Both the position numbers and the translations under genes were made by a program. A DNA stretch of 64,000 bases from Bryoerythrophyllum caledonicum (Eukaryota; Streptophyta; Bryopsida; Pottiales; Pottiaceae), in NCBI GenBank assembly GCA_963971425.1, contig OZ020514.1:10731218-10795217 (forward strand), written 5' to 3'. The notes under the pieces were generated by a model, which saw nothing but the letters and a program-made list of their open reading frames with translations, did not search any database and had not been told where the DNA came from. Shown in pieces: positions 3,109-62,264 of the stretch (its first letter is position 1; every line of letters starts with the position of its first letter).

Positions 3109-3120
3109 ATATCAGATGCT

Positions 3121-5909: not shown

Positions 5910-7439
5910 TTAACCCCCAAAAACACTTCAAAATTGTTGAAAAAAAAGAAGGAAACAAATACTTTCATTTCTAGTTTAGACCGTAGGATCTAAACTAAGA
6001 CTTGTCAAGTAACAAACTCACAAAAATTTATAAATTTTGATTGCACGGATTGAAAGATTATAGTGATTGAAGTCAAGCAAGTGGTTCATTTACTTCCCTG
6101 CAATCAGTGGATCAACACGCTTAGACTTAACTTCGTGTCAAACTTTTGCACCGCACAAGGTCTAAATCCATTATCATCTTGTTAACCCCTGAGAGCCCAA
6201 GTGTACATTTTTACATATTTCGGGCAAGCGGGGAAAAAATTCTTCATCTTTTCTACATAAAACCTAGAGATCTTTATATTTTTAACTTTTTATTTTTTCT
6301 ACAACAATGTGTGGTGTAAACCTTCTTATTGACCATTTAGATTATCATTCCAAAACAGATTAAATTCTCAAAAAAATAAATTGTGAATTGACAATTTTTG
6401 AACCTTCACTCCTTGCACACTTGTTTTGAATATGCTACACCCCTTCTCTACCTCTAAAAATTGATGCATACGGAACTAACATCATGCTCAACACAATGGT
6501 AAAAGATTTAGACCTTGTGTAGTAAAAAAATTGATTACCAAGTGAAGTCAAAGTTTGTTGATCCACTCAATCACGGAAGAAAATGAACCATTTTATTGAC
6601 TTCAAACACTATAATCTTTCAATCCGTGTAGTCAAAGTGTATGAAATTTTGTGAGTATGTTACTTAGTAAGTCTCTATGGAGATCCTATGGTCAAAAAGA
6701 TAAATATAACGTTTTGTTTCCTTCCTAACTCATTGCACTAGAATCCAACAATTTTGAAGTGTTTTTGGTGTGAAATTGTCACGGGCTTTTTGGGATTAAG
6801 CATGATATAAGTTCCTTATACACCAATTTTTAGGAGTAGAGGAGGGGTGTAGCATATTCAAAACAACTAAGCAAGGAATTGAGGTTCAAAAATTTCCAAT
6901 TCACGCTTTAATTTTTTGTCAGCTTAATATGTTTTAGATTGATAATCCAAATGGTCAATATGAAGGCTTACACCATATATTGTTGCGGAAAAAATAAAAA
7001 GTTAGAAATATGAAAATCTCTAAGTTTATGTAGAAAAGAAGAAGTTTTTTTGGTACCATGCCCGACAATGTGTGACAATGTTTGAAAATGTTTGACTTGG
7101 GTAAAAATTCTATTTTTCACTAGAAAAAAAAAATTCATTTTGACAATTTAAAGGGAAATAATATTCCTAGCGACTATTGAAAATCTCACATTCAATAGAG
7201 TGTCCTAGCAAAAGCTTTTGGAGTAGCCCGAGGTGCCCGCTCTCCCCATTTGAAATTCAAAACCCAATAACTTTTTCATCAAGTGTCCAATTTAGAAAAA
7301 AAATTGTTCTCCTACTAAGGTCTTTGTAATGCCCTTGTACTATAAAAATTTCAAAGAGGAACATTGGAAATTGACACCATAGGAACCTGACCAAACATTC
7401 CAAAAACCCATTTTTGACACTTGGTACTTTAGGGGTTAA
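5910..7439 (-). mobile_element. TTAA-flanked TIR element, copy B1 (host of a nested copy)
   Basis: The copy is in reverse orientation: TTAACCCCCAAAAACACTTC at the left, TACTTTAGGGGTTAA at the right. It is interrupted by a second family member at 6182-6799. Removing that insertion and one TTAA restores cttgTTAAgcatgat, the uninterrupted order seen in the intact copy at 61312-62264 (read on the opposite strand). The left end has lost about 30 bp of subterminal sequence compared with other copies. It is non-coding. Confidence 0.85.
6182..6799 (+). mobile_element. TTAA-flanked TIR element, nested copy B2
   Basis: This 618-bp copy begins TTAACCCCTGAGAGCCC and ends GGGCTTTTTGGGATTAA and sits exactly at a TTAA of copy B1, which is duplicated on both sides. 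The inner sequence follows the family order (cgggcaag, acaacaatgtgtggtgtaaacc, ctataatctttcaatccgtg, gaagtgtttttggtgtgaa). It is internally shortened against the roughly 950-bp copies, lacking about 200-300 bp after the left end. This nesting is direct evidence of transposition into TTAA. Confidence 0.88.
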
Positions 7440-7484
7440 AGCGGTGGCAAACTTTGACATTCTAGAGGTATTTTGGGAAGGCTG

Positions 7485-7571
7485 ATACAAATTAGTATAT
7501 ACGGAACAGAGCTAGTGAATAGCATGCTGATACAAATTAGTATATACGGAACGGAGCAAGTGAATAGCATA
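7485..7571 (+). repeat. Two tandem copies of a ~44-bp unit
   Basis: The unit acaaattagtatatacggaa...gtgaatagcat occurs twice head to tail with only a few differences. It lies just right of element B1. No function is evident. Confidence 0.8.
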
Positions 7572-7668
7572 CTAGAAATGGTAACTAGTGCCACGTACAA
7601 GATCCGGCATAACTTTTGTACTTTTGATGGATATTTTTACAATATTTTGTGGCAAGCATAGTACATTA

Positions 7669-8330
7669 TCCTACGCAATTGTCAATTTTGTATATTGTTA
7701 ATTCAAAATGGAGAACATCCAAAACAATTGGAAAATTCAGGAGATTTGTCTAGGTGATATCATGTAATGTCTAGGTGATACTCATTGATATTCATTATGT
7801 CCAAAGTGGAAATATAATTAGTTTTTAGCAATTCCATTATGTCCAAAGTGGAAATATAATTAGTTTTTAGCAGGTAGTGTTCAAAATTGACATCTTCGTA
7901 CACATATTAATATCTTTTTGGTTTGTAAAAATATTAATAGTTAGTAAAAGGTTACATAGCATGTACAATAATATCACTATTAGTGTAGTATATCCTACGC
8001 ATTGGTCGGGTTCGTACATAATTAAATTAGAATGGAGGGTGTTCAAAAATTGTGGAAAATATAAAATATTTGTCTATACCCATGTAATGTCAAGGTCATA
8101 CCCTTATTATACGTAGGCATTACTTATGTAAAACCTAGGTGATAGCCATTGTGACCAAACCATTGTGTTAAATATAAAAAAACTGGTTTGTACAAGGGTG
8201 TCCAAACCTGACCAATGCGCACGGTACACTGAATACAAACTTGTACACTAATTGGGTAGCTTGTGTAGTAACAGAACAATACACTAAATGCCAACTAGTA
8301 CATTATTTAACAATTAAAATAAATATTGCA
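7669..8330. repeat. Interspersed repeat X, copy 2 (interrupted by MITE W2)
   Basis: It matches 800-914 plus 1156-1385 with MITE W2 inserted. Its left end, tatcctacgcaattgtcaat, resembles the terminal repeat of the W family, so X may itself be a larger W-type element. It includes a local direct duplication, gtccaaagtggaaatataat, at about 7800 and 7845. It is non-coding. Confidence 0.6.
7991..8226. mobile_element. TA-flanked MITE, family W, copy 2
   Basis: The copy begins TATCCTACGCATTGGTCGGG and ends CTGACCAATGCGCACGGTA, a clear terminal inverted repeat. Repeat X copy 1 is uninterrupted at the corresponding TA (around 1271). The element is 236 bp and non-coding. Together with W1 this gives reciprocal filled and empty sites within the window. 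Confidence 0.82.
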
Positions 8331-8362
8331 ATGTTATTTTCTTGACTTGTGGACATTTAGTT

Positions 8363-8599
8363 TACCCTACGCGGTGGTCACTTTTGTACACAATTACTTC
8401 AAATTGGAGAGTTGTCCAAAATTTTGGAAAATATAATTTTTTTGTCTAGGTGATTACCCATGTAATGTCAAGGTGTTACTCATATAATGCCTAGGTGATA
8501 CTCGTATTATACTTATCTGAGACCTATTGTAACTGAATCACTACGTCAAAGAAAAATATTTTATTTTGACAGACATGTGCCTAAAGTGAACATTGGGTA
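8363..8599. mobile_element. TA-flanked MITE, family W, copy 3
   Basis: The copy begins TACCCTACGCGGTGGTCAC and ends AAGTGAACATTGGGTA, 237 bp. The interior contains the family phrases gtccaaaattttggaaaat and gtctaggtgat. The terminal repeats align with a small gap. It is non-coding. Confidence 0.75.
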
Positions 8600-8658
8600 C
8601 AATATTTACAATACAAGAAGATTCTAGGCGGCTAGTAGACAGTTGATTGTAGGTCACA

Positions 8659-9609
8659 TTGACCTCTAAATTTCTTTGACAATTTTGCCCCAAAAACACT
8701 TCAAAACTACCAGTTTTAATGCAATGAGTAAAGAAGATTCATAAAAAAATTATTTCTAATTTTAACCGTAGGATCTCAATAAAGACTTACTAAATAACAT
8801 ACTCACGAAATTTCATGAACTTTGACAGCACGGATTGTAAGATTATAGTATTTGAAGTAGAAAAAAGGTTCATTTTCTTCCTTGGGTTTTAGTGGATCAG
8901 CAGACTTTGACTTCACTTGCTGTCAAATATTTGTACTACACAAGGTCTAAATTCATGTCCATCATGTTAAGGATGATACTAGTTCCTTGTACACCAACTT
9001 TTAGAGGTAGAGGTGGGTTGTAGCATATTCAAAAAAATTGTGCAACTAGTGGAGGTTCAATAAGTGTCAATTCATGTTATATTTTTTTGTGAATTGAAAA
9101 TGTTTTAGAATGAGAATCCAATCGGTCAATGCAAAGGTTCACACCACATAATGCTACGGAAAAAATAAAAATTGAAAAATAAGAAGATCTCTAATTTTAA
9201 TGTGGAAAAGAAGAAGTTTTTTGGTACCTTGCCCGACAATGTGTGACAATGTGTGAAAATGTTTGACTTGGATTTATATGCTTTTTTTCACTATAGGCAA
9301 GAGGATTTTTTTGACATTACTAAAGGAGATATTATTATTTGCTAGTACTTAAAATCTCACATTCAATAGAGTGTCCTAGGAAAAGTTTTTGGAGTTGCCC
9401 AACGTGCCCGCACTCCCCATTTGAACTTCAAAATACTAAAACTTTTTCATTAAATGTTAGATTTAGGAAAAAAATTGGACTCACACAAAGCTTTTGGTAA
9501 TGTTCATCCTCAGTAAAAATTTCAAAGAAAAATGTTGTAAATTGACACCTCAGGAACCGGCCTAGACCTTCTAAATCCCCGAGGGGACTCTTGAAAATTT
9601 AGGGGTTAA
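8659..9609 (-). mobile_element. TTAA-flanked TIR element, copy C
   Basis: A reverse-orientation copy of 951 bp. The left terminus is decayed (TTGACCTCTAAA for TTAACCCCTAAA) and the right terminus is AAATTTAGGGGTTAA. The interior is collinear with the copies at 59879-60839 and 61312-62264. It carries an intact TTAA at the place where copy B1 was invaded (atcatgTTAAggatgat). It is non-coding. Confidence 0.8.
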
Positions 9610-10268: not shown

Positions 10269-10763
10269 TCAGTATGGGCGCTGTCCCACGTAGTTGCCCG
10301 GCGGATTGTAGCTGCAGATGATGTACACCGCATTGTCGTTGCACAGCACCGACGCGCACCCGACCTCCGTCGTCTTGCGCCACACCACCTGAGTGTAGTG
10401 CCCGCACACCTTCCCCGCGCTGCACGTGTTGGTGGAGTATCTGTAGTCCCGGCCCTCGTTCACCCACATGGTGACGGCCTCCAGGGGCGTCCACGCCTTC
10501 CCGGAGCCCCAGAACAGATTCTCGCCGTACGGGCCCCCCGAGTGCCGCAGCGGGATGCTCGTGGCCTGCTGCGACGTCGCGTAGTTGCGCGCGTACGTCG
10601 CCAGGTTGTCGTTCCACTTGAGCGGGGGGACGCCCACCTTGCTCCGCGCTTCGTTGTGCGGCGTCAGGAACGCGGCCGGCGAGTTCGCATCGGGTGACAA
10701 GTACTGCGCATCCGCCGCTGCTGCAACCATCACGAGCACAACTAGCACCCCGAACCTCGCCAT
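10269..10763 (-). CDS. Pathogenesis-related protein 1 (CAP domain), copy c, lacking one conserved cysteine
   Basis: Single-exon gene for 164 residues with a signal peptide (FGVLVVLVMVAAAADA). CAP blocks HNEARSKVGVPPLKW, GPYGENLFWGSG, VTMWVNEGRDY, CGHYTQVVWR and the PPGNYVGQRPY tail are intact and nearly identical to copy a. Where copies a and b read AKCIPLRHS and SRCLPLRHS, this copy reads ATSIPLRHS, so the first of the six PR-1 cysteines is gone and one partner cysteine should be unpaired. It does have GGPYGE, closer to the usual PR-1 HSGGPYGEN than the RGPYGE of its sisters. The best TATA box of the three genes (TATAAAG) lies about 120 bp upstream. The frame is open, so it is called functional, with possibly altered stability. 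Confidence 0.92.
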   Translation of the reverse strand: MARFGVLVVLVMVAAAADAQYLSPDANSPAAFLTPHNEARSKVGVPPLKWNDNLATYARNYATSQQATSIPLRHSGGPYGENLFWGSGKAWTPLEAVTMWVNEGRDYRYSTNTCSAGKVCGHYTQVVWRKTTEVGCASVLCNDNAVYIICSYNPPGNYVGQRPY

Positions 10764-10882
10764 CCTGACGCCTCCAATCTAGAGAACTCCGAAACTGAAG
10801 CACTCGGATCTAGACACTCGTGGATCCGCGAACTGTCGTGTCTGAACTCGGTGCTGTGATATGTCAATCATCTGAGGCGGGG

Positions 10883-11740: not shown

Positions 11741-12663
11741 CAAAAAACACTTCAAAATTGTTAATTACAGTGCAATGAGTAAGGATGGAAACAAATAATC
11801 TTATTTCTAGTTTTAACTGTAGAATCCTCATACAACACTTACAAAATAACGTAATTACAAAATCTCATTAACTATGACCATATAGATTGAAAGGTTACAG
11901 TGTTTGAAGTAGAAATAATGGTTCATTTTCATCCTTGGGTTGGGTGGATCAATAGACTTTGACTTCACTTGGTGTCAAAGTTTTGCACTACACAAGATCT
12001 AACTTTTATATCATCATGTTGATCATGATATTAACTCCATGCACACGAGTTTTTAGAGGCAAAGAAGGGATGTAGCATATTCAAAAAAAATTGTGCAAAG
12101 AGTGGAGGTTCAAAAAGCGCTAATTCACATTTAAATTTTTTAGGAACAAAATATTATGTTTTAAAATGATAATTCAAATTGTCAATAAGAAGGTTTACAC
12201 CACGTCTTATAATTAAAAAAAGTATAAAGTATAAAGATCTCAAAGTCTTATGTGGAAAAGAAGAAGTGATTTCAGTTCCTTGCCCGACAATGTGTGGCAA
12301 TGTGTGAAAATCTTTATCTTGGAATAAAATGCATTTTTTTACTAAAGACAAGAACTATCTTATAAAAAACATGAAAGGATATAATATTACTTCCTAGTAT
12401 TGAAAATCTCAAAATCACTAGAGTGTCTTAGCAAAAGTTTTTGGAGTTTCCGACGTGCCCACACTCGACAAATTTTTCTTTTAGATGGCATAACTTTTTT
12501 CTGAAAGTCCAATGAGAATAAAATATTATACTCCCACATACCTCTTGTCTTCTTGTCTCTGTACAAAATTTCAAGAATTGCAAAAATAAATTGCAACCAT
12601 GGAAACGTGCCCTTGATTTGCAAACAGACTTTTTCCCCATGGCTTTTATCATCTAGGGGTTAA
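11741..12663 (-). mobile_element. TTAA-flanked TIR element, copy D (left end eroded)
   Basis: Reverse-orientation copy collinear with copies B1 and C, from caaaaaacacttcaaaattg to the right end ATCATCTAGGGGTTAA. The left terminal repeat is missing: the body begins directly after the end of the PR-1 duplication homology. It is non-coding. Confidence 0.72.
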
Positions 12664-18305: not shown

Positions 18306-19269
18306 ATAACCCCTAAAGGACCAATTGTCCGTTGGGGACGCTTTTGATTTCGGGCAGGCTCCTAAAATTCGATTTTTTTTAAATTTTTATTTAAAACTCT
18401 TATATGAGGTTGTCCCTAATAAGAGCTCCATGGAGATATTTTTATTATTATTTTTGGATTTGTGGTTTAAAAGTTAGTACCACTCAAACTTAGAAATGGG
18501 GACTCCGGACAGCTCCAAAATACTGCTAGAAGTTTCTATTGACATTGAGATTTTCCATTTATATAGAGGATATTATTTTCTTTGAAGATGTAAAAAAAAA
18601 ATCTTGTCTTTAGTGTGAGAAAACATTTTAACTCAAGTTAAACATTTTTACACATTTCGGGCAAGTGTGGAAGAAAACTTCATATTTTCTACATAAAACG
18701 TAGAGATCTTCATATTTTTCACTTTTTATTTTTTCAACAACAATATGTGGTGAGAACCCTCTTTCTAAGTGGTTGGATTATCATTTCAAAACATATTAAA
18801 TTCACAAAAAAATAAATCGTGAAATGACAATTGTTGAACCTCCACTCCTTGCTACACCCCTTGTCTAGAATTTTTTTTTTACAGAGAAGGGTTGTAGCAT
18901 ATTCAAAACAAGTGTGCCCCTTCTCTACCTCTAAAAATTGGGATTATATGGAACTTACATCATCCTTAATACAATGGTAAAAGAATCAAACCTTGTGTAG
19001 TGCAAAAATTTGGTACCAAGTGAAGTCAAAGTATGTTGATTCACTCAACGCAGGGAAGAAAGTGAAACATTTTCTTGACTTCAAACACTATATATAATCT
19101 TTCAATCCATGCAGTCAAAGTGCATGAAATTTTGTGAGTATGTTACTTAGTAAGTCTTAATTGAGATCTTCAAGTCAAAAGGATAAATATAAGGTTTTAC
19201 TCATTGTACTAGAATCAACAATTTTGAAGTGTTTTTGGTGTGAAGTTATCACAATCCTTTAAGTGTTAA
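18306..19269 (+). mobile_element. TTAA-flanked TIR element, copy E
   Basis: Forward copy of 964 bp. The left end is ATAACCCCTAAAGGACC (first T of TTAA mutated) and the right end is CACAATCCTTTAAGTGTTAA. The left third (gggcaggctcctaaaattcg) is most like copy A, and the remainder is like B2 and I. An internal inverted stretch around 18865-18920 repeats part of the body backwards. It is non-coding. Confidence 0.78.
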
Positions 19270-21855: not shown

Positions 21856-22568
21856 ATGTAAAATCGGACAAATATACTTCTAGTGAGAGTTTCAGGGGGT
21901 GGAATACCTCAAAAAATTTAGCACACATTCATGTCATAATGTATTCATACATAGTGATTCAAAATTTTAGATTGATTTAACATGATTTGGCTTTTAATGG
22001 TGAAAAATAAGCTATTTTTCTCATGAAGAGGAAATTAGAGATTAATGTTGGTTTTTGCTCTGAAATCCTATGCACCATACAAAAATCTATCTTGATACAT
22101 GTTTTGTTTTTTAATTTAAAAAATCTCATTATTTTCTTTAAAATCAAATTTTTGGACCTTGGTGCCTTAATTCAACATACATGTTGTGCAATATATTTTG
22201 ATATATTATCAGCCTATGCAGTATGCAATATACTCATCTTGGGAAAGGGCCGAGCCACCTATACAATGACATATGTTATGACAACACAAAATTCCAAAAA
22301 TCAACATTTTGCCCAAGGTATCTTCTGTAAACACAAGAGTCGAACAAACTCATAACCAGTAAATGCCGGACGAATGGTGGAAATAGCATTGCTCTTGAAA
22401 GAGTGCCTGATTAAATGTGAGTTACCTATGGTTTTTATGTGGGTAGTTACCATAGCTACGTCGTAACTTTGATGTGGCGGAAAAAGTTCACAAGAAGCTT
22501 CACTTCTTTGTCCTCTCATAATAAATTCCACGCGCGTAACTTGAAGATGGCTGCCATTTGTAGAGATG
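21856..22568. other. Spacer without a recognised gene
   Basis: AT-rich, unique in the window, ending at the copia insertion site. No coding or repeat signature was found. Confidence 0.4.
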
Positions 22569-22573
22569 AAGAC

Positions 22574-22850
22574 TGTTAAAATAGGATGAATGTACATCCA
22601 TTCACTCCGAGGTTCTTAATCAGGAGCATTCAGCTCACCTACCCGGATTAGGTAGACCTTCTAGTTAACACCAGCTACCGTTAATCCCGAGGCATTAACC
22701 ACCAGCTACCTACAGTTAACTCACAACTAGTTGAACCTACCGTTAATCCCGAGGCATTAATGCCTCGAGATAAATAAACCAAGGCTTGTGCTCATAGAGA
22801 CAGTTCATTCTTGTTGTTCATCTGGTTTGTTTGCTTCACATCTCTCAACA
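22574..22850 (+). repeat. Left LTR of the copia element
   Basis: The LTR begins TGTTAAAATAGG and ends CTCTCAACA (TG...CA). It carries two copies of CCGTTAATCCCGAGGCATTAA; the right LTR carries three. Confidence 0.92.
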
Positions 22851-23268
22851 CGTTATCAACAGGTATCTCACGCTCTCTTGCTGATTTTTTACTTTTCTCT
22901 CTTCCTTCAATCACGTAGTAGTGATCGCAGTAGGGAGTGAGGAACGGTGAAGGGGTGCTTCACGAACCCAATCACGTCCAATACACGAGGTTGTCTTGCA
23001 GGGAACTTACCGGGCTCCCTGACCCGGCAACTTTGTTGAGGATTGATGGTTTAAGTTCGTGAGTACAATCCCCCAAGCAGTCTCGAGAGCAGCCAACACT
23101 TTCGCTCATGTCTTTCAATTTTATTTTATTTTGCTCTCTTCATCATCCTCCGCTTGTATAGACATACATGAAGTTTTCTTTTTCTCTCTTTTGTTGTTTA
23201 GACAGCCAGTTTTATAGTCAGAGACACCTGAAGCCAAACCTGTTGTAGAAACCATAGAAGTCATAGCT

Positions 23269-24180
23269 ATGGCAGCACATCGCCCACCCCGCGATAGCCG
23301 CATACAGCCTCTCATCTTTGAACCTTTAGAACCCGATGGATCGAACTACTTAGGTTGGAACATAGACATGCGGACATACTTATGCGCTGACGAACTAGAC
23401 GTCACGTTAAATCCAACACCCGAGGAGGAGATTCCAGCTACATACAAATGGCAGACACTTCTTCTCCTTCGACGTCACCTTGATCCTTCATTGCGACAGC
23501 AGTATATCCAGGAAGAAGACCCTGCCGCAGTGTGGACAACTTTGGAGGCCCGATTCGAACACGAGGAAATCATATTTTTACCTCAAGCCCATAGCCAGTG
23601 GATCGCTCTTCGTGTCATGGACTTCCCCAACTTTCTTGCATTCAACTCAGAACTCCACAGGATCGTTGCACAACTCCGACTTTGCGGCGACACAGTAGCA
23701 GACACCGAGCTAATTGACAAGACGCTGTCAATGTTTCCACCTGCATGCGCGATCTTAGCCCAGCAATACCGCAACATGAGGTTCACGACGCATGCTGAAC
23801 TCATGTCTTACCTGCTCTTGGCTGAGAAGCAACAACAACTGCTGCTGAAGAACGCCGAATCGCGCCCAGCCAAGGAGATCCATACAAGCGAAGTACAGCA
23901 TCAACCGCAGACCTCGAACCCGGCGAAAACACACAACTCCAAGCCAGCACAAGGCAACGGCAGCCGGGAGTCACACATTTCTGATGCACCACGCCGAAAA
24001 CCGAAGGACAGCTGGAAGCCGAAGCAAGAGTGGAATCGGAATCTCCGAAACCCGAGGTATGCGTATAAATCCAAAAATGAAACATCTTTTCAGTCATCCA
24101 CTAGGACAGTCAAAGGCATGTGTCATAAATGTGGTCGCCTTGGTCATTACGCCAAGGAATGTCGTGCCTCCCAGTATTAA
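23269..24180 (+). other. copia gag region (fossil)
   Basis: This part encodes a gag-like polyprotein of the copia type: an N-terminal block with LGWNIDMRTYL, a UBN2-like capsid segment (LEARFEHEEI, MRFTTHAELMSYLLLAEKQQ), and a CCHC zinc knuckle (CHKCGRLGHYAKEC). It belongs to the element at 22574-28007. Confidence 0.88.
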
Positions 24181-24189
24181 TGTGTCATG

Positions 24190-27100
24190 TGAGATGTATA
24201 AAGAGTTGCAGTCACTGAAGGAGGGCAAGAGGGAAACACACACCCTCGATGCACCCTCCCTCACACTCACTGATCTAGACCCAGAAAACTATATGGTCCA
24301 GCGAGTAGCGCCGGTCAGCACAGCCAAAATTGCCTTGTTAGACAGCGCCTCTACTCACACCATTTTTCAAGACCCGTCGTACTTCGAGTTCAAAACTCGA
24401 AACGAACCGTGGCAAAGTTGTGACATAGTCACAATAGCAAGCACAAGGAACTTCAAGTTCCGTGAGGGCCGGGCATCGATTGTTTTGCCCGGGGGAGCCC
24501 CCCTCATCTGTGCACGGGCTATGTATGCCCCAGACGCCCCACGTAGCTTGGTCAGCTATCGTGACTTACGGGCCAACAATATCCACGTCTCCACTGCGCA
24601 TGAGAACGATGAAGAGGTGCTCGAGCTCAGGCGAGGGCCGACGATCCTCGCCACCGCACACGTGGGAGCCAACCGCCTATACGAGCTTGCTATCAAGCAA
24701 GTCGAGCCCCCCTACAAAGGTGAGGAAGAGGCCGATGGACGCCTTCGAGCGTGTCATCAGCGCCTACTCCCTAGGGGCATGATATCATCGTTCCTAGCCA
24801 CCAGAAGCAAGGCCAACCTATGGCACCGCCGGCTAGGCCATCCGGGAACGACGATGATGAGGAAGATGATCCCTCAGCTCACAGGCCATGACCTGTGCAC
24901 CAACGACGCGAAGCACGTGGATGAGTGCCCTGCATGCATACAAGGGAAGCTGATAAGACAACCATCGAGGTGGAAGCTCCCGATAGAGATGCCACCCGCC
25001 TTACACCGCCTCCATGGCGATTGGTGCGGTTCCATCACACCTCAATCCGGTCAGTTTAAATACTTCTTTGTGCTTGTTGATGCATCTGGGACACATGCTG
25101 AAGTTTCATTGCTTACAACCCGAAATATGGTCTTCCCTAAAACCTTAGCGATGCTTATTAGATTCCGGAACCATTTCCCCAATAATCATATTTGTTATCT
25201 TCGAATGGATAATGCCTTAGAATTCAAATCCCAAGCCTTCGAAGATTTCTGTGTAGCGTCCGGGATAGAATTAACTTACTCAGTTCCGTATAAACACGCC
25301 CAGAACGGTCTAGCACAAGCCTATATCAAAAAGATTTAGCTCATAGTTAGACCCTTTTTATTTCATGCGAACCTACCGCCTACCTTGTGGGGTCATGCTG
25401 TTTTACACGCCGCTGTATTACTTAGGCTCAGACCAACGCTTCTACAAACCCAAAGCCCGCTTGAACTAGCATCCGGTAGAACACCTCATATCGCCCACTT
25501 ACGCTCCTTTGGCTGCGAAGTATGGGTCCCTGTTTCTGACCCGAAACAGAAGACTTTAACACCCCACAGAATTAGAGCCATATACCTTGGATATGACTCC
25601 CCAAGTATCATTCGATTCAAACTCCCCAAGAGTGACGATATTTACAAGGCTAGATTTCAGAACTGTAAGTTTATAGAAAAATTCCCAGGCACCCCATACC
25701 TACCCACCTACAAAGCCCTGAACTTCAAGGATTTAGAAACCTTGACCCTAAACCCAGACCCACGGATTGCTCTAGCTGAAACTGAGGTTAGAAAATTAAT
25801 CAATCTATAGAACCTGGCCGAGAACATCCCTGATGGATATCACTCAGGACCCAGGATCATTAGAAGTCCCGTACCTGGTTCAGGTAACCCGGTCCCAGTG
25901 ACCCCAACCAAGAAACGAAAAATGAGCCCGACCCCACGAGCACGTGCAGCCATGCACCTGCATTACAACCCATCAGAGCCGACTGTAGAAATCCCGTGGG
26001 ATGATTTCCAATCATTCCTCACCCACCCCAAGACGGATCCAACTACACTAGATCAGGCTAAGAGTAGCCCAAATTGCCCAGAGTGGGAGAAAGCCTTACA
26101 AAATGAATACAAATCCCTTAGAAAACGTGAAGTTTTTGGACCCCTAGTGACCAACCTCACAACCAAACCCATAGGGCACAAATTGATATTTACCCGCAAA
26201 CGAGATGAGCACGGTAAAGTCCTTTGATTTAAGGTCAGGCTAGTAGCCTAAGGGTACACACAGAAACCAGGGATAGATTTTGAGCAAACTTACTCCCCCG
26301 TAATGGACAGTACATCTTTTCGTTACCTTCTAAGCATAGCAGTCCAGCTAACCCTCGAAACCCGTCTATTAGACGTCATTACTGCATATCTATATGGTGA
26401 CCTAGACACCCAGATTCACATTAAACCCCCACCAGACTTCTTACCAGGTGATACCTCTCCCCAACCCGGGAAGTTTGCTGGATTGAGAATCCACAAGGCC
26501 CTTTATGGCTTGAAACAAGCCGGCCGTACATGGTATCACCACCTAAAGTCCTTTCTACTTTCCCGAGGATTGACAACCCGCCCAGCCCTACCCTGTGTAT
26601 TCATCCTCAAGGACGATACTGGTTTCGTGATCCTCGCAGTATACGTTGATGATCTGAACTCGATAGGGACATCAACGTTAAGTAAATACGTAGAAACATT
26701 ACTAACCGAAAAATTCGAGATGAAAGTATTAGGTCACATATCCTACTGCTTGGGTCTATAGATCAAACACTTCGAGGACGGCAGCTTGCTTCTTCATCAA
26801 CAGACCTATGTCAAGAAGATGCTACGTGCATTCAACATGGAGAATGCTAACGTGCTGTCCGCCCCCATGATCGGCAAGAGTCGCACCGAAGACAATCCAT
26901 ATCGACTAGCTGAAGACAACGAGGAGGAGCTCGACAAATCCCAGTACCTAGCAGCCGTCGGAGCCCTACTATACCTCGCCACCAACACGAGGCCGGACAT
27001 CTCGTTCGCAGTCAGTGTACTTGCACGGCACAGCCAGAAGCCCACGGCCCGACATTGGCAAGGCATCAAGCACCTCCTCCGATACCTCCGCGGGACAGAG

Positions 27101-27633
27101 GATCTCGGACTTCACTACCGAAAACAAGCACCGAGTGACATAGTTGGATACGCCGACTCTAGATTCAAGACCGATCCCTTGACCGGCAAGTCCCAGACTG
27201 GCTATATCTTCATCAAGAACGGTGCACCAATATCATGGCGATCACCGCCACCTCCACCAACCACGCCGAGCTGCTTGCCTTCCACGAAGCATCACGCGAG
27301 GCAGTATGGCTGCGCACCGTGCAAGAAGCTATTCTTCAGATGAGCAGACTCCCACCTAGAAACAACGCAACCATCATATTCGAAGACAACGCAGCATGTA
27401 TCGAGCAAGTGTCTTCGGGATTCATCAAGGCTGACCGTGTCAAACTCATCAGCCCCCACACCTTTGGTTACACACAAGACCTCACCGAAACTAATCAGAT
27501 TCAAGTCAAGAAGATGCCATCGGTTGACAACATTGCCGATGTTCTGACGAAGGCATTACCCGCTCCCCAACACCGGAAATTAATCAGAGCAGCAGGTATG
27601 AGAACCCTGAGTGAATTAGATTCCGAACAATGA
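24190..27633 (+). other. copia pol region (fossil, broken)
   Basis: Domains in order: protease (LLDSASTHTIF, about 24337), GAG-pre-integrase (LWHRRLGHPGTTMM, about 24820), integrase core (GDWCGSITPQSG, about 25018), reverse transcriptase with YVDDL (about 26643) and a copia RNase H tail (VLTKALPAPQHRKLI, about 27541). The order integrase before reverse transcriptase identifies Ty1/copia rather than Ty3. The region is broken in several places. Confidence 0.88.
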
Positions 27634-27699
27634 CTTTACTCTTTTTCCTTCATATTTTTGAAGTTTTTTTAATGAGGAAGATCATCGTTCGAGGAGGAG

Positions 27700-28007
27700 T
27701 GTTAAAATAGGATGAATGTACATCCATTCACTCCGGGGTTCTTAATCAGGAGCATTCAACTCACCTACCCGGATTAGGTAGACCTTCTAGTTAACACCAG
27801 CTACCGTTAATCCCGAGGCATTAACTACCAGCTACCGTTAATCCCGAGGCATTAACCACAAGCTACCTACAGCTAACTCACAACTAGCTGAACCTACCGT
27901 TAATCCCGAGGCATTAATGCCTCGAGATAAATAAACCAAGGCCTGTGCTCATAGAGACAGTTCATTCTTGTTGTTCATTTGGTTTGTTTGCTTCACATCT
28001 CTCAACA
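27700..28007 (+). repeat. Right LTR of the copia element
   Basis: Matches the left LTR, with one more unit of the internal CCGTTAATCCCGAGGCATTAA repeat (308 against 277 bp). Confidence 0.92.
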
Positions 28008-28012
28008 AAGAC

Positions 28013-28222
28013 CATTAAGGTGCCGATGAAAAGCTCTGATTTAATTAAATAAAATAGGTGGTTTTGAGGTTTTCTCATTCATCCGTTAATGGATTTTATA
28101 TTTCACTTAACAAATTGAAAAAATGGGTTATGTTTGTACACATTAAAAGAATGTGTGAAAAAGAGTCACACATCAAAAGGACTAAATGCTTTCGTTCCAT
28201 GCTTTGGGCTTTTAGGGGTTAA
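28013..28222 (+). mobile_element. Fragment ending in a TTAA-family terminus (copy F)
   Basis: The stretch closes with TGGGCTTTTAGGGGTTAA, the right terminus of the TTAA family. The body to its left does not clearly match other copies, and no left terminus was found on the other side of the copia element. Either a diverged copy was split by copia or only the end is shared. Confidence 0.45.
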
Positions 28223-33100: not shown

Positions 33101-36100
33101 TTGTCGCTCACATCCTCTAACACATTTTGAGCTCCTCGTTGGCTTTCCAACAGATCTCTCCAATCTCCAATCCATACAAACTACAATGATAATTTCCGTG
33201 CCTAGGTCATGCTGAAAATGTATCCTCTGCGTAGATGATGTTTTGCCTAGTCTATTCAGCTTGTAGATTCTTCCAGTCTTGGGCCGTCAAGGGTTAAAGT
33301 GATGGTAAGATTGTAATATGTTGTATGCAGACCAAGTTGTTCCTGGTTTAGAAGAAACACTGACCACTATGAAGAAAGGGGAAGTGTGCATTGTGGTGAT
33401 TCCTCCGGAGTATGGCTTTGGAAGTGAGGCCAAACAATGCGACAACTCAGTCCTTGTCCCCGCCAACTCAACTTTAACTTACGAAGTAGAGATGATCTCT
33501 TTTGTCAAGGTAGAGTGATGGTTGAAGTTGGTAGAATCATCATCATGGAACCAAGATTTTTCTCTCCTTCTTGTTTAACTAGCAACACATTAGTCCAACC
33601 ATTTTAATGTAGTTTTTATAATACAAAATATTTTTAAAAGAAAGGTAACATGGTTCACTGCATGGTTGGCTGCAGCATTTCCGTAGTTCACTGCACGGTT
33701 GACTGCACCGTTTCTGTAGTTTGTTGCATGGTTGACTTCTCGATTGATTACTGCGTAGTTTGTTGCGCAGATTATGATTTTTGCAGTATGATTGAAGTGG
33801 AGATAATCAGTTCTGTCAACTTGGTAGAGTTGGTTCACATTAGAATCATGTAGTTACCGAGAATTCCCTCCTTTTTCTTTTTTCTTTTGAAGTGGAGATG
33901 ATCAGTTTTGTCGAGGTAGAGCTAGAATCATGTAATCAAGAATTTCTTTTTTTCTTTTTTGTTTAATTATTTTCTTTAGTTGGCAGGCGAAAGATTCCTG
34001 GGACCTGGATGCGCAACAAAAGATTGCCGCGGCTGCCAAGAAAAAGGAAGAAGGCAACCATCTGTTCAAGCAAGGAAAATTGTTCTTTGCTGCCAGGAAG
34101 TACGAGAAGGTACTAAATGCCATACTGAACTAGATCTGGATCATGCAAAGTCCAGAAATAAAGACGGTTGTTGCAATCTCCCGATGATTTCAGTGAAATT
34201 CATCTGGAGATGTCCAGATGATATGTACAGTCCAAAGTCCAGATTTAGTTAAATTTGGCATGACTATCATGTTAGAGTGATTTCTAAATTACCCCTTTTA
34301 TAGAAAGAACTTCATGGTAGGATTATGAGACATTGCTTTCTTGGTGCTATTGTTTTTTTCAGGGAGGAAAGCATGTAGAATATGAGTCCATATTCGCGGA
34401 TGGTGAGGAGAAGAAAGACGCAAGAGCCCTCAAGATGTCCCTCAAACTGAACGAAGCAGTGTGCAGGCTCAAGTTAGAGAGCTTCCCAGAAGTGGTTGAG
34501 TTGTCCACCAAGGTTTGCTCATACTCATACTCATACTTTCTGTATCATATGAAGTATATTCATTCTACACTAATTCTCGCAAATAGTGAATTTCTAGGGC
34601 ATGCTCTATTTTGTAGAATCGCTTTGGAGAAAGTATTTTGTGAAAAGGTTTTTAACATTTAACCTTTTTGAGAGGGCTAGGACGTCGGTTGGGAACCGTA
34701 TATACATGCATGTATTTTACTCTGTAGAATACCCCAAAAAATGTATCAAACTTTAGCAAGCACGTTACACCTTTGGGTTGAAGATTCTTCAACTAACATC
34801 TTTTATTTCGAGGTCATTTCAATATCTCATCCTTATCATGTTCAAATACACCACCGTACATGTAGAATATTGTGGCTACCAGTGGCACCTTATGACATTT
34901 AACCTCTAAAGGCCCAATGTCCCCTCAGGGAACATTTTGAGTTTGGATAGGATACCACGCTCTCCAATTTAGGTATGATTTTTTGAGATTTTTTATTGAA
35001 GGAGAAACTTTTTATTAGCTACCTGTAGATATAAGTTTTTGTAGATATTTGATTTACGGTGCAAAAGTTACAATTTTTTATCAATAACATATACAAGTAA
35101 AGCAGGAGTTTAGTGTGACACATTACAAATTGTGTACCAAAGCTTTGATTAATTCTAAATTCAATAGAAATTCAAGATCTTGTCCATCTAATAAAAGGAA
35201 ATTTCTTCTTGGAAAGGAAATGGAGATCTTTGCATCTACCGTATGGATTTTTGAATTTTGAAAATATGAGAAGGATAAGATATATGCAAAACTTGAGATA
35301 AATTCATAGCACATAGTTGCATTGCAGAATTTTTAAGGACATCTTTTACCACTCTTCTACTTCTAAAATTTGGTGCACATGTGCCTAACATGATCCTTTT
35401 CAAGTTGAAATTAGAAAATGACGGACCGTAGTACAAAAAGTTGCCATAGAAGGTGGTCAAAGTTTGATGAAGGTGTTTAGTATGACCTCAAAATAGAGTT
35501 ATGTCTCACCTCAAATGCTGATATTCTTCAATCCGTGCGGTCAAATTGAACTAAAATTTTACCACATACACTTGTACAATCCTAGTACAAGATCCTACGG
35601 TTAAATATGTGAAAATTGTGTTGATTTGCATTTTGTGTTGAATGCGTTTAAAGCTGAAGCTAACTATTTTCAATGAGTTTGGGTGCTATAAAATGCCTTG
35701 GGCCTGTAGGGGTTAGGGGTAAAAGATTAAGTTATGTTTTGTAGTGAGTTTAGATCTCTATTGGTAGAAATAGAAGCTTCTGATATGCATCCAAACTACC
35801 TCAACTCCTGTCTAGAAAATTTGAGCGATTCTTTTGAGGTTGAATGGGTTATAAAGAACTAGTGGACCCCGTTGTCCCTAGCGGGCATGGGCACTCTCCA
35901 GTTAAGTCCTCATCCTCCTCCTAAACGCCGCCTAATATCTCCAAGGTTAACCCTTTAAGGCTGATCAACCATACATGGGTCGATTCTGGACAAAAACCTT
36001 AATAGAGAGTGCTACAGGCCACCTCAAAGGAAAAAATAGACCATGACTTAGAGGTGGAGGAAGATGGGCATCTATTGAGACCATCGCCACCACAATTGGT

Positions 36101-36869
36101 GCAAGCATGGGCGAGCTACAATGATTTCCGTAAAATGAGTTCGTAGATTTTTGTGCTAAAATGTACCCGTTGCGTAGATGCCATTCTACAAAATCTAAAA
36201 CCCTCGTAGATCCTCACAGGCCGAAAAAGCTCATCGGCCTTAAAGGGTTAAGTCCCCATCCTCCTCCTTGAAAACGCCATCCAACATTTCTCAACCAAGT
36301 CCATGTGGTCCCTCCATGTGACTTCACCCGGGCTATGGAAATTGTCCACATGACTTCTCACCCGGCAAGGATTGTATAGGATTAAATAGATAGAAGAGAT
36401 TAAGAGATTGTGGAATGATGCAGGTTTTGGAAATTGATTCCGTGAATGTGAAGGCTCTTTTTAGAAGAGCCCAAGCAAACTGTGCACTGATGGACCTGGA
36501 ACTCGCGGAGCAGGATCTCAAGAAGGTGTTGGATATTGATCCTGAAAACAGGTCCAAGTGCTTTCTCAATATCTCCATAAAAGTGCATGTGTTATTTAAA
36601 AGTGTTCTCTCTACTTCATAGACGGTTGGCAATTATCAACCCCATTTTGTGTCATAACTTATTCTAATTTTTTATTCATAGTATGATGTATTACGAGTGT
36701 GATAAGATGCGCATATGATCATGTTTGCAGGGATGCAAAGTTGGAGCAGAAGAAGGTGAGCAGAAAGCAGGCAGCCCATCGGAAAACCGAAGCCAAGTTG
36801 TATGGCAATATGTTTGAGCGGTTGACTAAAAAGGAAGACAAAGAGTCTATGCAACTAGGTTTGATTTAA
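30137..36869 (+). CDS. Multidomain FK506-binding protein with TPR (ROF1/FKBP62-type peptidyl-prolyl isomerase)
   Basis: Twelve exons: 30137-30386, 30521-30604, 30706-30969, 31621-31701, 32063-32143, 32240-32434, 32799-32888, 33331-33509, 33987-34109, 34363-34512, 36424-36551, 36731-36869; GT-AG junctions with consistent phase give 587 residues. FKBP domain 1 (about 65-170) keeps the drug/active-site pattern: VHYTGTLLDGTVFD, GVGQVIRGWD, AQYAYG. Domains 2 (about 195-300) and 3 (about 315-408) have lost the FD and W positions, as in ROF1. Residues about 410-545 form a TPR region (KKKEEGNHLFKQGKLFFAAR, ALFRRAQANCALMDLELAEQ), expected to bind HSP90, followed by a basic tail (KLYGNMFERL). The family acts in heat-stress signalling with HSP90. 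The ATG is in GCCGCCATGG, a strong context. Introns are crowded with small transposons. Confidence 0.94.
31000..31180 (+). mobile_element. TIR MITE family V, copy 1 (FKBP intron 3)
   Basis: The stretch gtgctatag...gagtaaaaacttatagc forms a long inverted repeat and matches the copies at 58255-58440 and, inverted, 45415-45630. This copy has lost the outer part of its terminal repeats. Confidence 0.6.
31731..31892. mobile_element. TIR MITE family Y, copy 1 (FKBP intron 4)
   Basis: Begins atgccatatttaattaaatc tggacttt and ends with the inverse, gtccaaatttaattaaatt. It starts 30 bp inside the intron after exon 4. Related copies are at 32441-32677, 34117-34261 and 41910-42166. Confidence 0.7.
32441..32677. 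mobile_element. TIR MITE family Y, copy 2 (FKBP intron 6)
   Basis: The body runs from tctagactgggcaaagtc to gtccagatctagttaaatat ggcat and matches copy 4 (41910-42166) read in the opposite direction almost throughout. It begins within about 6 bp of the exon 6 splice donor and fills most of the 364-bp intron. Confidence 0.72.
33030..33297. mobile_element. Short TTAA-flanked element, second family, copy 1 (FKBP intron 7)
   Basis: Begins TTAACCCTGGAACGCC and ends GGGCCGTCAAGGGTTAA, 268 bp. The interior (ctacaatgataatttccgtg, aaaatgtatcctctgcgtag) matches the element at 35947-36251. It is non-coding. Confidence 0.72.
33586..33795 (+). repeat. Repeat family Z, copy 1, with ~33-bp internal repeats (FKBP intron 8)
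   Basis: The stretch tagtccaaccattttaatg through aggtaacatggttcactgca matches 49855-50016 inverted. The inner part consists of about four degenerate units of gttcactgcatggttgactg. No terminal repeat was identified, and the boundaries are approximate. Confidence 0.65.
34117..34261. mobile_element. TIR MITE family Y, copy 3 (FKBP intron 9)
   Basis: Begins ATGCCATACTGAACTAGATC and ends with GATTTAGTTAAATTTGGCAT, an inverted repeat of about 25 bp. At 145 bp it takes up more than half of a 253-bp intron and starts 7 bp after the donor. Confidence 0.75.
34662..34898 (+). repeat. Interspersed repeat R, copy 1 (FKBP intron 10)
   Basis: Matches 59490-59720: shared order catgtgttttac/catgtattttac, ttgaagattcttcaa, aacatctttcattt/aacatcttttattt, cttatcatgttcaaatac, caccagtggcaccttatg. 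It is bounded by TTAA-like bases on both sides and abuts element G. It is non-coding. Confidence 0.75.
34899..35716 (+). mobile_element. TTAA-flanked TIR element, copy G (FKBP intron 10)
   Basis: Forward copy of 818 bp beginning TTAACCTCTAAAGGCCCAA and ending TTGGGCCTGTAGGGGTTAG; the terminal repeats pair over 17 bp with two mismatches, and the last A of the right TTAA has mutated. It carries the subterminal phrases tccgtgcggtcaaattg and gatcctacggttaaa. It is non-coding. Confidence 0.8.
35947..36251. mobile_element. Short TTAA-flanked element, second family, copy 2 (FKBP intron 10)
   Basis: Begins TTAACCCTTTAAGGCTGAT and ends ATCGGCCTTAAAGGGTTAA, an inverted repeat of 19 bp with one mismatch, 305 bp long. 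The flanking host sequence contains a further direct repeat, gttaagtcc(t/c)catcctcctcc, at about 35901 and 36247. Confidence 0.82.
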
Positions 36870-46565: not shown

Positions 46566-48964
46566 TTACTGCGCCTTGATACCTGACGCTCCTTGAGATC
46601 CCTGAAATCCTTGACACACCTGTATAGCGTGAATCAGACAATCCTTTCCGACCATCCTCTGTATCTCTTGAACAAGGGATTTACGAGACATGCTCCCAGC
46701 CTACAAAAACAACGATTGAACAAATGAGAACTACAACGACTGAACAGATGGAAACTGCAACAATTGAACACAAGAACGATTACGAAGATTGATCACAAGA
46801 ACGACCACAAAGATTGATCACAAGAACGACTACAAAGACTAAACACAAAAATGTCTACAAAGACTAAACACAACGACTACAAATATTAAACACAAGAACA
46901 TAAGACCACAAAAATTGACCACGTGAATGACTACAAAGACTGAGCACATGAGAACTAAGACATAAGTCACTGGCCCAGGAGACGAGCTCAACAATGATGT
47001 CTCAGCATGGGATCGAAAGGCATTACCTCATATTTGGCGTGACTGTTCTTCAGTGACAGACATTGCTCTGGACTTAAAAGGCGCTGTAAAAGCGCAAATA
47101 GTTGGGGAAACCGAATGAAGGCCGATGTTGGACCCTGCTGAAGGTTTGCACATCCTGTTAGCTTGTTGCGCATAGCAGCCATGCTGCATGTCTTGTGACG
47201 GAGAGATTCGGTTATTCCGCATGCCTGCAAAGCACAAACCAGTTATAGTTTTACAGGGATCACCAAGATCAAGAGAGAAAAAAATCTAAAACTCGAGAAA
47301 CTCTCCAGCTGCAGAAAGATTATTAAACACAAGAACAAGGGTGACAAAGACAAACCTACATATATGAGAGAGATACAACAGTTGTCTTGCAAGAGTGGTG
47401 TCTGTCTCAAGAACACACATCCAGTGAATAACACATACCTGCTTCGTAAAAAGGGGCTGCTGCTTCACAGGAACATCATGACAGAACAAGGAAGACATCC
47501 GCTGCTTGCCGTTCAATCCAGCCATCATGCCTGGAAAGTGCAAAAACAAACACTCATAAGAATCGTTTTCCAAGAACAAACAGAAAACGCACAATAGAAA
47601 CACAATGAGATGATGGATGAGACACTCACGATGCCAACGAGGGGGCAACTTGAAGCTGACCACGTAAAGAGGCAGCACATGAGTGTTCATATGAGTAGAC
47701 CAGACGATGAGGCGCTTCGGTGCAACCAGATCATCAACACCGGTATCATAATGCTCACTACTAGGATGAAACTGCTCCGACGGCGGTTTCACTAACTCAG
47801 TCGCCCCTGCCACAACCTGGCAGAGCACCACATGCTGCTCGCCATTCTCGTCATTATCCGCATACAAGGCACTGCAACACACAAACAAAACACCATCTGT
47901 AAGCGAGAATCGCAAACAACGCACCTGACAAAAAGATGGAGTAGAACCAGCAACAGCACAGAAATGAATCCTAACACCGACCTGACAAAGGCTTGATTCT
48001 CCACAGCCAGATACACTCCGACGCCATAAGCTGATCCATTCTTAGGTGTCTTCGGCTGTCCGAATCCGTGAAGAAAGATCCCGGCCACGCCCTTCTTGGA
48101 CGTTCCGTGCCATCCGAAACGGACGTTGGCGTTCCCACGCGCCTGCTCCGTCAATACCTTCTGCCTCTCAAACGCCTCCTGCCGCGCCATCGCCACAGGG
48201 CTGGAGTCGCGGTGAATTCCAGTGATCCTCGTCTCCTCCGCGAGCTTCCCGAAGCCGCTCAGAAACCTCGCCTTGACGTCGTCAAAATCGCTACAACCAG
48301 GCTCTAATTTCGCAAATCGCTGTCCTAGACCGGGAGAACTCTCCTCCTCCGTCTTAACTCCCAAGGTGAGCCGCGTGAGCTCGTCGTCGCCAAGAACATC
48401 GCCTCCAGACCCTAACATTAAGCTAGAAATCGAATCTGTGGCGCCATCGCGCCAGTTCGTCGTCCTGGTGGCGCCTGGCATCCCCGCGCTAGGGTTCCCC
48501 GGCAGCGAAACCTCATCGCCAATCCAAGCTATCGACCTCACGTATCCCGTCGCCACGTTCACCTGCGTCATCTCCTCAAACCGTAACAAGTAAACTCGTC
48601 CCTCAACCACGACCTCCGCCGTCTTCTCCCCGGCCAGAAACCGCTCCCAGGCCACCGAATTCGCCTCCTCCGGATACTCCTTCCAGTCTCCCTTCTCAAA
48701 GTACATGAACCGCCACGGCCTCACCCCGGACACCGACTCCACCTCGGCATCCCGGCTGCGCAGCCCCGCCTCGACGACCCTGCGGTGCACACAGGCCTCG
48801 TCTCCGTCTCCCTTGACGCGCTTAACGCTCCAGGCTTCGCTCCCTCTCTCCCGCCGCTTCCGTGACTCTCCTCCTGGAAGAGGAGTACGCAGCACAGCAG
48901 CATCGCCGCCGCCAACAGGACCTGTGCGCAAACGAAGCACGGCTCCATTCTCACACACATCCAT
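46566..48964 (-). CDS. RCD1/SRO-type protein with WWE, PARP-like and RST domains
   Basis: Five exons on the minus strand: 48964-47982, 47871-47630, 47530-47439, 47224-47027, 46700-46566; phases agree and give 549 residues. A basic motif (ESRKRRERGSEAWSVKRVKG) near residue 40 suggests nuclear import. A WWE domain follows (RPWRFMYFEKGDWKEYPEEA to YVRSIAWIGDE). The PARP-like fold spans about 240-405 (WHGTSKKGVAGIFLHGF, YGVGVYLA, ENGEQHVVLCQVVAG, GVDDLVAPKRLIVW, THVLPLYVVSF). The C-terminal RST domain (FIRFPQLFALLQRLLSPEQ to RKSLVQEIQRMVG) is expected to bind transcription factors. Family members are usually without ADP-ribosylation activity and regulate stress responses. A longer open frame upstream lacks an ATG, so the start at 48964 was taken. 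Confidence 0.93.
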
Positions 48965-49854
48965 TTCCTCAACACAGAAAACAAAACACTCCAACCTCCA
49001 AATTTTCTCACAAATTTACACTCATATGAAACTTCAATCAGATTTCTCTCGTTAAACGTTTGATTGCTCGTTTCATGCTCCAACTTCCGATCGTCGATCA
49101 ACACGGAATTTATAGTCACAGTTTCTCTCTCCACACGCTTACTCACGTTCAGAATCGCATCGCAACGAGCGAGACGAAGTGATACCCGCATGATGTACAG
49201 GTGATACTGACACGATACCCGAGGTGGAGCTGGCGATACTATGGAGATAACTAGGGATGCCCCTTTGCCGTGCCGCCTCACCATCACCGCCTTGGGAGGT
49301 TCGGGATCGTGGCCGTCAAGGGGCGCTAGGTTCGGGAGGGGTTGCGTGGGCGCCAAGGCTAGCGGGTCGTTTTCGCGGGAATGGGGTCCCGATCCCGTGA
49401 CGGCGCGGTATCTAACTTCTGTGTAGATTTCGTGTGGCGGGTTTGGGTTAGTGACGGTAATGTGACGCGGTTGTTTCGTGGAAAGGACGGGTTTAGGTGG
49501 TTGACGAAAGGTGTGGCGTCAAAAGTTCGCTTCGGTTCCAAGGCTGACGTCGCCACGGTTGTGGGGGATGGGGAGGTCGGGGACCGGTGCCCGCGCGCTA
49601 TTTGTGGAATATGGGTTGGAAATTGTGAGGATGAAGGCAAGGAAAAGGAGTGGGCTGAGTTGACATGATCCTATTTCATCCCCTTGGATTCCCTTCAACA
49701 TTTTGTGTGAGTTTGTGGAATAGTGTTGGTTTTAGATAGAAGGTAGTGAGAGGTGGTCGGTTGGATGTGCAATTTTGATTGATTCAGACCCTTTTAAACT
49801 TGTTTACTTGAGGGATTAATCATATTTTTATTAATGCATATTTTACTACTAAAA

Positions 49855-59878: not shown

Positions 59879-60839
59879 TTAACCCTTGAATGCCTAGGAG
59901 TTCTCTTAGGGGACTCTTGAAGATTTGGGCATGTTCCTATAGTGTCAATTTGTAACATTCTTCTTTGAAATTTTTCTTGAAGATGGACATTACTACAAGC
60001 TTCGTGTGAGTACATTCTTTTCCTAAATCCGACTTTTAATGAAAAAGTTATAGGGTTTTGACTTTCAAATGAGGAGAGCGAGCACGTTGGGCAACTTCAA
60101 AACTTTTGCTAAAACACTCTAGTGTATGTGAGAGTTTCAATAGTAGCAAGTAATATCATTTCCTTTGAGATTGTTTAAAAACATTTATTGTTTTTGGTGA
60201 AATTTATCATATGAACCCGAGTCAAACATTTTCACATATTGTCACACATTGTCGGGCAAGGTACCAAAAACACTTCTCATTTTCCACATAAAATTTAGAG
60301 ATCTTCATATTTTTTACATTTTATTTTTTCTACTACAAGATGTGGTGTAAACCTTCTTGTTGACCTGTAGACTATCATTCTAAAACATAATTAGTTTACA
60401 AAAAATAAAACATGGATTGACAAATTTTGAACCTCTATTCCTTGCACAATTGTTTTAAATATGCTACAACCCTTCTCTACCTCTAAATACAAGTGTACCA
60501 AGGAAATAATATCATGATTGTCATGATGGTAATTAGTTTGACCTTGTGTAGGGCAGAACCTTGACACCCAGTGAAGTCAAAGTCTGCTAATCCACTCAAC
60601 GCAGGGAACAAATGAACCATTTTCTGTGGTTCAACCACTATAATCTTTCAATCCGTGCGGTCAAAGTTTATGAAATTTTGTGAAGACACTACTTAACAAG
60701 TCTGAATTGAGATCCTACAATATAATGCAAAAATAATTTTTTTTGTTTCCCTCCTTACTCATTGTACCAGGACTAGAACTAAGATCACGAGATTTGAAGA
60801 GTTTTTGGTGTGAAAATGCCTCGGGCCTTTAGGGGTTAA
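59879..60839 (+). mobile_element. TTAA-flanked TIR element, copy H
   Basis: Forward copy of 961 bp beginning TTAACCCTTGAATGCC and ending CGGGCCTTTAGGGGTTAA. It is collinear with copy I throughout (ttcctatagtgtcaattt, cgggcaaggtacc, ctataatctttcaatccgtg). It is non-coding. Confidence 0.85.
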
Positions 60840-61311: not shown

Positions 61312-62264
61312 TTAACCCCTAAGGTACCAAGTGTCCAAAAAGGGCTTCTTGAAAGTTCGATCAGGTTCCTATGGTGTCAATTTCCAACATTCTTCTTTGA
61401 AATTTTAACTATAAAAAGATATTACCAAGACCTTAGTGGGAAATTTTTTTTTTCCTAAATTGGACATTTGATGAAAAAGTTATAGGGTTTTGAATTTTAA
61501 ATGGGGAGGGCGGGTACCTCGGGCACCTCCAAAAACTTTTGATAGGACACTCTATTGAAAGTGAGATTTTCAATACTTGCAAGTAATATTATTTCCCATC
61601 ATGTTGTCAAAAAAAAGTTCTTGTCTTTAGTGAAAAATAGCATACCAACCCAAGTCAAACATTTTCACACATTGTCACTCATTGTCGGGCAAGGTACCAA
61701 AAAAGCTTCTTCTTTTCCACATAAAACCTAGAGATCTTTATATTCTTCACTTTTTATTTTTTCCACATCAATATGTAATGTAAACCTTCTTATTAAACAT
61801 TCGGATTATCAATCGAAAACATATTATGTTCAAAAAATAATAAAGTGTGAATTAACAAATTTCGAGCCTCCACTCCTTGCACACTTGTTTTGAATATGCT
61901 ACACCCGGTCTCTACCTCTAAAAATTGGTGTGTTAGGAGCTAACATCATGCTTAACAAGATGGTAATAGATTTAGACCTTTTGTAGTGAATTTTTTTGAC
62001 ACCAACTGAAGTCAAAGTTTGCTGATCCACTAAACGTAGGGAAGAAAATAAACCATTTGCTTGACTTCAAACACTATAATCTTTTAATCCGTGCGGTCAA
62101 AGTTTATGAAATTTTGTACATGTATTACTTAATAAGCCTTTATTGAGATCCTACGGTCAGAACTAAAAATCAAAGTTTTTGTTACCTTCTTTATTTTTTG
62201 CACTAGAATCCATTTAGTTTGAAGTGTTTTTGGTGTAAAACTGTCACGGTACCTTAGGGGTTAA
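61312..62264 (+). mobile_element. TTAA-flanked TIR element, copy I (best preserved)
   Basis: Forward copy of 953 bp with perfect 17-bp ends: TTAACCCCTAAGGTACC at the left and GGTACCTTAGGGGTTAA at the right. It holds an uninterrupted TTAA (catgcTTAAcaag, about 61951) at the place where copy B1 was invaded. No frame encodes a transposase. This copy is the best reference for the family. Confidence 0.9.

Follow-up and report, generated by a model that had tools for sequence, protein, structure and literature searches.

Evidence for non-autonomous piggyBac superfamily elements at high copy number in the genome of a moss

The TTAA-flanked repeats in our window, which is the whole stretch of 64,000 nucleotides that was analysed, are almost certainly non-autonomous (MITE-type) piggyBac superfamily elements of a moss genome. 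We base this assignment on the TTAA duplication that flanks them, on the presence in the same genome of TTAA-delimited elements coding for a PF13843 (DDE_Tnp_1_7) transposase, and on one group of these elements, F4, sharing both ends with the index copy of the repeats (61312-62264). We hold the exact source element of the MITEs with less confidence. The initial annotation had proposed non-autonomous piggyBac-like elements moved by a transposase coded elsewhere in the genome, and the TTAA sites and the PF13843 elements with matching ends support that proposal.

The genome searched comprises 437,360,962 bases (437 Mb) in 894 contigs. Its LEAFY gene was recovered in the genome search as two adjacent exon matches with no further match listed, and it was compared with the structures 4bhk (E 3.4e-71) and 2vy1 (E 3.5e-49), which we take to be the LEAFY proteins of Physcomitrella and Arabidopsis, respectively. 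The aspartate of 4bhk (MRDYVHCYALHC) is retained in the host protein, while 2vy1 has a histidine there. This comparison bears out the earlier description of the host as a land plant and narrows it to a moss. Table 1 compiles the elements considered here, together with other features of the window; piggyBac MITEs sit between its three CAP-type frames.

Table 1. Positions of the MITEs, transposase-bearing elements and background features, in the window or in the fetched loci (L numbers).
Feature	Sequence	Position	Strand	Remarks
Index MITE, 953 bp	window	61312-62264	+	TTAACCCCTAAGGTACC at both ends; without transposase
Index-family MITE	window	59879-60839	+	about 79% identical to index copy; TTAA at both ends
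Index-family MITE, split by nested element	window	5910-7439	-	left end altered
Nested MITE, 618 bp including both TTAA	window	6182-6799	+	inside 5910-7439; TTAA at 6182-6185 and 6796-6799
Index-family MITE	window	8659-9609	-	left end mutated to TTGA
Index-family MITE	window	11741-12663	-	left inverted repeat and left TTAA missing
Index-family MITE, diverged	window	18306-19269	+	left end ATAA
Different piggyBac MITE, 1,160 bp	window	3121-4280	+	right 648 bp corresponds to F4 right arm, 74.5%
Separate MITE family, about 815 bp	window	34899-35716	+	similar end type; right end mutated
305-bp element	window	35947-36251	+	TTAACCCTTTAAGG at both ends; further high-copy TTAA-ended family, absent from the initial annotation
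Lone end-like word	window	28209-28222	-	doubtful
CAP-type (PR-1-like) open frame	window	1788-2306	-	segments of the three frames about 90% identical
CAP-type (PR-1-like) open frame	window	5155-5823	-	middle frame; the CAP family assignment comes from a domain test on this frame only
CAP-type (PR-1-like) open frame	window	10269-10778	-	
Copia-type LTR retrotransposon	window	22565-28007		LTR stretches about 96% identical
WWE + PARP domain frame	window	47792-49015		domain search; presumably of the plant SRO/RCD1 type
F1 element	L009	2317-9348		ends TTAACCCCTAA
F1 element	L012	2433-8987		ends TTAACCCCTAA
F1 element	L014	2477-8952		ends TTAACCCCTAA
F2 element	L017	1391-6323		ends TTAACCCTTAA; partner copy in L022
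F3 element	L025	2096-7131		ends TTAACCCCTAA; partner copy in L021
F4 element	L010+L051	406-11293		10,888 bp
F4 element	L027+L052	711-11291		10,581 bp

When the window was compared by BLAST with the index copy, much of the length of that copy aligned, at about 75-84%, with the elements at 5910-7439, 6182-6799, 8659-9609, 11741-12663, 18306-19269 and 59879-60839, and with the index copy included a common body is present in seven of the nine two-ended copies. The single collinear body previously ascribed to about ten copies thus holds for seven; the bodies at 3121-4280 and at 34899-35716 are those of other families, and the word at 28222 is an isolated end. Within the window, 28 words match TTAACCCCTAAAGG with at most three mismatches, whereas 100 dinucleotide shuffles gave 5.43 on average and 12 at most. 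This excess agrees with the inverted ends that had been attributed to all copies, but the copy at 11741 has no left end, and of the nine two-ended copies only five keep TTAA on both sides, three ends being mutated, at 8659 (TTGA), 18306 (ATAA) and 35716 (TTAG). At the left end at 5910, TTAACCCC runs directly into subterminal sequence, which suggests a small deletion, and the copy at 8659-9609 resembles the MITE nested in F4 (81-82%). The copies had been estimated to cover roughly 13 percent of the window, and their coordinates indeed sum to 12.9%; a library built from elsewhere in the genome matches 6,468 bp (10.1%).

The remaining TTAA-ended elements of the window are distinct from this family. 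The MITE at 3121-4280 has only about 60 bp in common with the index copy, and that at 34899-35716 gave no match to it in the alignment within the window. Relatives of the latter are present in loci L020, L023 and L025, and inward-facing pairs of ends that span 815 and 819 bp, comparable with its own length, occur elsewhere in the genome. The 305-bp element gave at least 45 genome matches, from 40 scored among 2,239 first-look candidates (a lower bound), and five of its copies among the matches listed are adjoined by a second copy. The end-like word at 28209-28222 has no element body and no match nearby to the element library from this genome.

The ends of the index family are abundant genome-wide. 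The exact word TTAACCCCTAAAGG was counted 8,556 times (4,197 + 4,359), against 4 for the reversed word, and the 11-base core TTAACCCCTAA 20,448 times, against 265 for its control. When the genome was searched with the index copy at the DNA level, at least 7,932 first-look candidates came up; 40 of them were scored, and the others are not confirmed copies. Among the 41 matches listed, window copy included, 38 are full-length and 40 are at least 95% identical. When the first 100 listed exact ends were paired with neighbours within 2 kb, 17 pairs faced inward, 2 outward and 2 the same way, and 12 of the 17 inward pairs delimit 929-935 bp. On the assumption that each element is about 950 bp long and takes up two such ends, we infer, as a rough figure, some 10 Mb of such elements, or 2% of the genome; the piggyBac copy number is unusually high for a land plant. 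Twenty copies, picked along the match list rather than strictly as its top 20, were fetched with 100 bp of flank. Together with the index copy (n = 21) they differ from their majority sequence by 1.6-3.2% and from each other by 4.1% on average, values that understate the spread of the family because only the best matches were listed.

The analysis of the flanks indicates TTAA as the target site. TTAA stands on the left of all 20 fetched copies and on the right of 19 (the exception being L034), and the 20-base flanks, compared by eye, all differ. The 18-base left terminus CCCCTAAAGGACCAAGTG occurs 1,502 times genome-wide, with TTAA directly before it in 1,246 cases (83%); we assume mutation or truncation for the other 256, which have no exact TTAA before them. 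Inverted repeats beginning CCC after TTAA were found in the window, in the fetched copies and in the genome word counts. Two nested insertions display, in a related copy, the uninterrupted target (as distinct from an excision). The window element at 5910-7439 reads ...CATCTTG-TTAA-(insert)-TTAA-GCATGATA..., and the matching place of the index copy reads ...CATCTTG-TTAA-GCATGATG..., with a single TTAA; once joined, the flanks align with the index copy in one stretch, 82.5% identical over 891 columns. Likewise, L012 carries a MITE of 887 bp including both TTAA between CCCAATATAG and CAAGAAATC, a site at which L009 shows one TTAA only; after joining, the flanks align with L009 as a single stretch (90.6% identity, 18 gap columns). 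The TTAA target duplication claimed from the window has thus been confirmed on these genomic samples and at the two empty sites.

Potential sources of transposase are present in the same genome. The PF13843 profile gave 120 genome matches and none in the 14 control genomes; some of the matches are fragments belonging to a single gene, and many contain stops. Loci of 10 kb were fetched round 20 of the 120, mostly the highest-scoring, and four groups of elements, F1 to F4, were delimited with the support of a second copy; the boundaries in L016, L018-L020, L023, L024, L026 and L028 are single-copy assignments. The homology of independent F1, F2 and F3 copies ends at TTAA to within 5 bases; that of the two F4 copies begins at the left TTAA and stops no more than about 10 bases from the right one. 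The F1-F3 elements measure 4.9-7.0 kb, and the F4 elements, which contain nested insertions, 10.6-10.9 kb. In the short loci L001-L008, even the best candidate pairs of inverted TTAA ends agreed at only 12-13 of 20 bases.

Several of these elements are very similar to each other. The F1 copies of L012 and L014 lie on contigs C3 and C9, have different flanks and share a single stretch of 5,761 bp at 99.4% identity; such near-identity in different places points to recent movement, as judged from sequence. Six dispersed piggyBac genes (L054, L055 and four others) have a frame of 493-502 codons, free of stops in five of them; the two that were compared, from C3 and C4, share 2,990 bp at 99.0% identity, and the set is possibly a recently active lineage. 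Within F1, about 1.26 kb of L009 (approximately 6022-7281) is absent from L012, with no TTAA at the joint. The two F4 copies each contain a full-length MITE at an identical position (L010 6310-7262, L027 6409-7361), which therefore travelled with F4 during its movement or copying.

The transposase inside the elements with TTAACCCCTAA ends belongs to PF13843 (E 6e-81), and the 813-codon open frame of F1 in L012 matches this family at 2e-81. Against the solved structure of the piggyBac transposase from Trichoplusia ni (T. ni; 6x67), the F1 protein gave E 1.4e-28, and the three catalytic aspartates of the two proteins line up. The search for a source element with the DDE_Tnp_1_7 profile, suggested in the initial annotation and carried out on these samples, has therefore led to TTAACCCCTAA-ended elements that code for the expected transposase class. 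All three aspartate motifs (DDD) were found in 14 of the 20 fetched loci, a count that includes L010, where the last motif reads GVDVANQ with N at the second acidic place. The cysteine-rich tail pattern was found in 17 of the 20 (absent from L010, L018 and L027); no Pfam model was reported for this C-terminal domain in P0001 or P0002. In its matched part, the F1 protein is only about 35-40% identical to the four F2-type loci, and there are therefore at least two deep transposase lineages in this genome. A comparison of the F1 transposase with viral contigs gave 5 pattern stretches and no tblastn match, from a single-protein query of the kind that finds close relatives only.

These elements resemble T. 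ni piggyBac (6x67/6x68) in the TTAA duplication, the CCC.../...GGG termini, the DDE_Tnp_1_7 core with DDD and the C-terminal cysteine-rich region. They differ from it in their moss host, in the sizes of F1-F3 and F4 given above, and in the long acidic, glycine-rich N-terminal part of the F1 frame. The transposase core of F1 is also alike to that of piggyBat from Myotis lucifugus (9c0f; E 1.5e-24), which is an animal element. Animal piggyBac MITEs are short, non-coding and TTAA-flanked, carry the ends of a transposase-bearing element, and far outnumber the transposase genes. The moss MITEs are alike by this class description, as distinct from a sequence comparison, and differ in having a plant host.

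Among the elements fetched, the link between the MITEs and a transposase-bearing element is closest for F4. The first 67 bp of the index MITE match F4 at 84-85% (85-87% for copy L036), the last 47 bp at 85-87%, and a subterminal stretch of about 55 bp at 80-82%; in the index MITE and in F4 alike, this stretch lies about 220 bp inside the right end. In our reading, the MITEs would be larger F4-like elements that have lost their coding centre. In the proposed mechanism, piggyBac elements of the same genome would supply the transposase in trans; the enzyme would recognise the TTAACCCCTAA termini and excise the element, and the excised element would be joined into a TTAA site, which would thereby be duplicated. 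Movement was presumably by cut-and-paste, and the enzyme probably F4- or F1-like. The fetched F4 copies look degenerate, L010 having an in-frame stop and L027 only one of the three strict motifs, and close relatives of F4 are limited to a few more genes or gene pieces (87% at C10; pieces of 66-89% at C1); the mover may therefore be an F4 relative outside the fetched set, or an enzyme of F1 type that works on other families too. The F1 elements have intact-looking frames, but the short terminal core is all that their ends have in common with the index MITE. L009 was once taken as the parent, its positions 7454-8378 matching the index copy at 94.5% over 928 bp as a supposed source right arm. We rejected this candidate when the L009/L012 alignment placed the element at 2317-9348, which makes the match internal and probably the remnant of a nested MITE.

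That the MITEs might descend from older, unrelated sequences which acquired piggyBac-compatible ends and were cross-mobilised, rather than from deletion of a larger element, is a possibility that we regard as rather unlikely. It would explain why most of the index body has no F4 counterpart outside the nested MITE, the shared stretches being limited to those of 67, 47 and about 55 bp. It fits poorly with the equal distance of the subterminal stretch from the right end in the index MITE and F4, and with the 648 bp of F4 right arm kept in the MITE at 3121-4280.

The assignment to piggyBac itself could be questioned, since a TTAA target duplication is not unique to this superfamily; Sola3 is another that targets TTAA, and the repeats might resemble piggyBac in their ends only. 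We consider this extremely improbable, given that elements with TTAACCCCTAA ends code for PF13843 and that F4 and the index MITE share both ends. Equally little probability attaches to spread by segmental duplication, or inside larger repeats, in place of transposition: the tandem duplications round the CAP genes show that such events occurred in the window, but the flanks of the 20 fetched copies differ and start at TTAA, and two empty sites were found.

PiggyBac is well known from animals and is used as a gene-delivery tool. In plants, the superfamily is not new, as piggyBac is named there in passages of four sources. One multi-kingdom survey lists PiggyBac among the superfamilies found in all its groups (PMC4438587), a table of the Ceratopteris fern genome gives 1,230 PiggyBac fragments with a share of 0.00% (PMC6890710), and piggyBac-like elements are stated in passing for fungi, plants and animals (PMC8086355; PMC10813416). 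The earlier remark that the superfamily is rarely documented in land plants holds only in part, given these listings. In PMC10619864 the two text hits turned out to be the word 'piggybacking'. The relevant passages of PMC4438587 and PMC6890710 concern the same superfamily in land plants but contain no delimited elements, target sites or MITEs. No endogenous piggyBac of a moss appeared in open-access titles and abstract beginnings, which is weak evidence because subscription journals lie mostly outside that material. What is new here is a high-copy, well-delimited piggyBac set.

On balance, we lean slightly towards a broader view, in which this moss carries a diverse, recently or still active piggyBac complement with at least two deep lineages, several MITE families and about 20,000 ends, as one of its main DNA transposons and on a scale beyond the parts of the land-plant literature considered. 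If this is true, a natural TTAA mutagen would be open to direct study in a plant. The interest of the case lies in its abundance, its completeness and its signs of recent movement: one moss genome presents transposase-bearing elements, MITEs, target sites and empty sites together, and offers a concrete plant case in which to study the arrival of piggyBac in plants, its spread there and its possible continuing movement.
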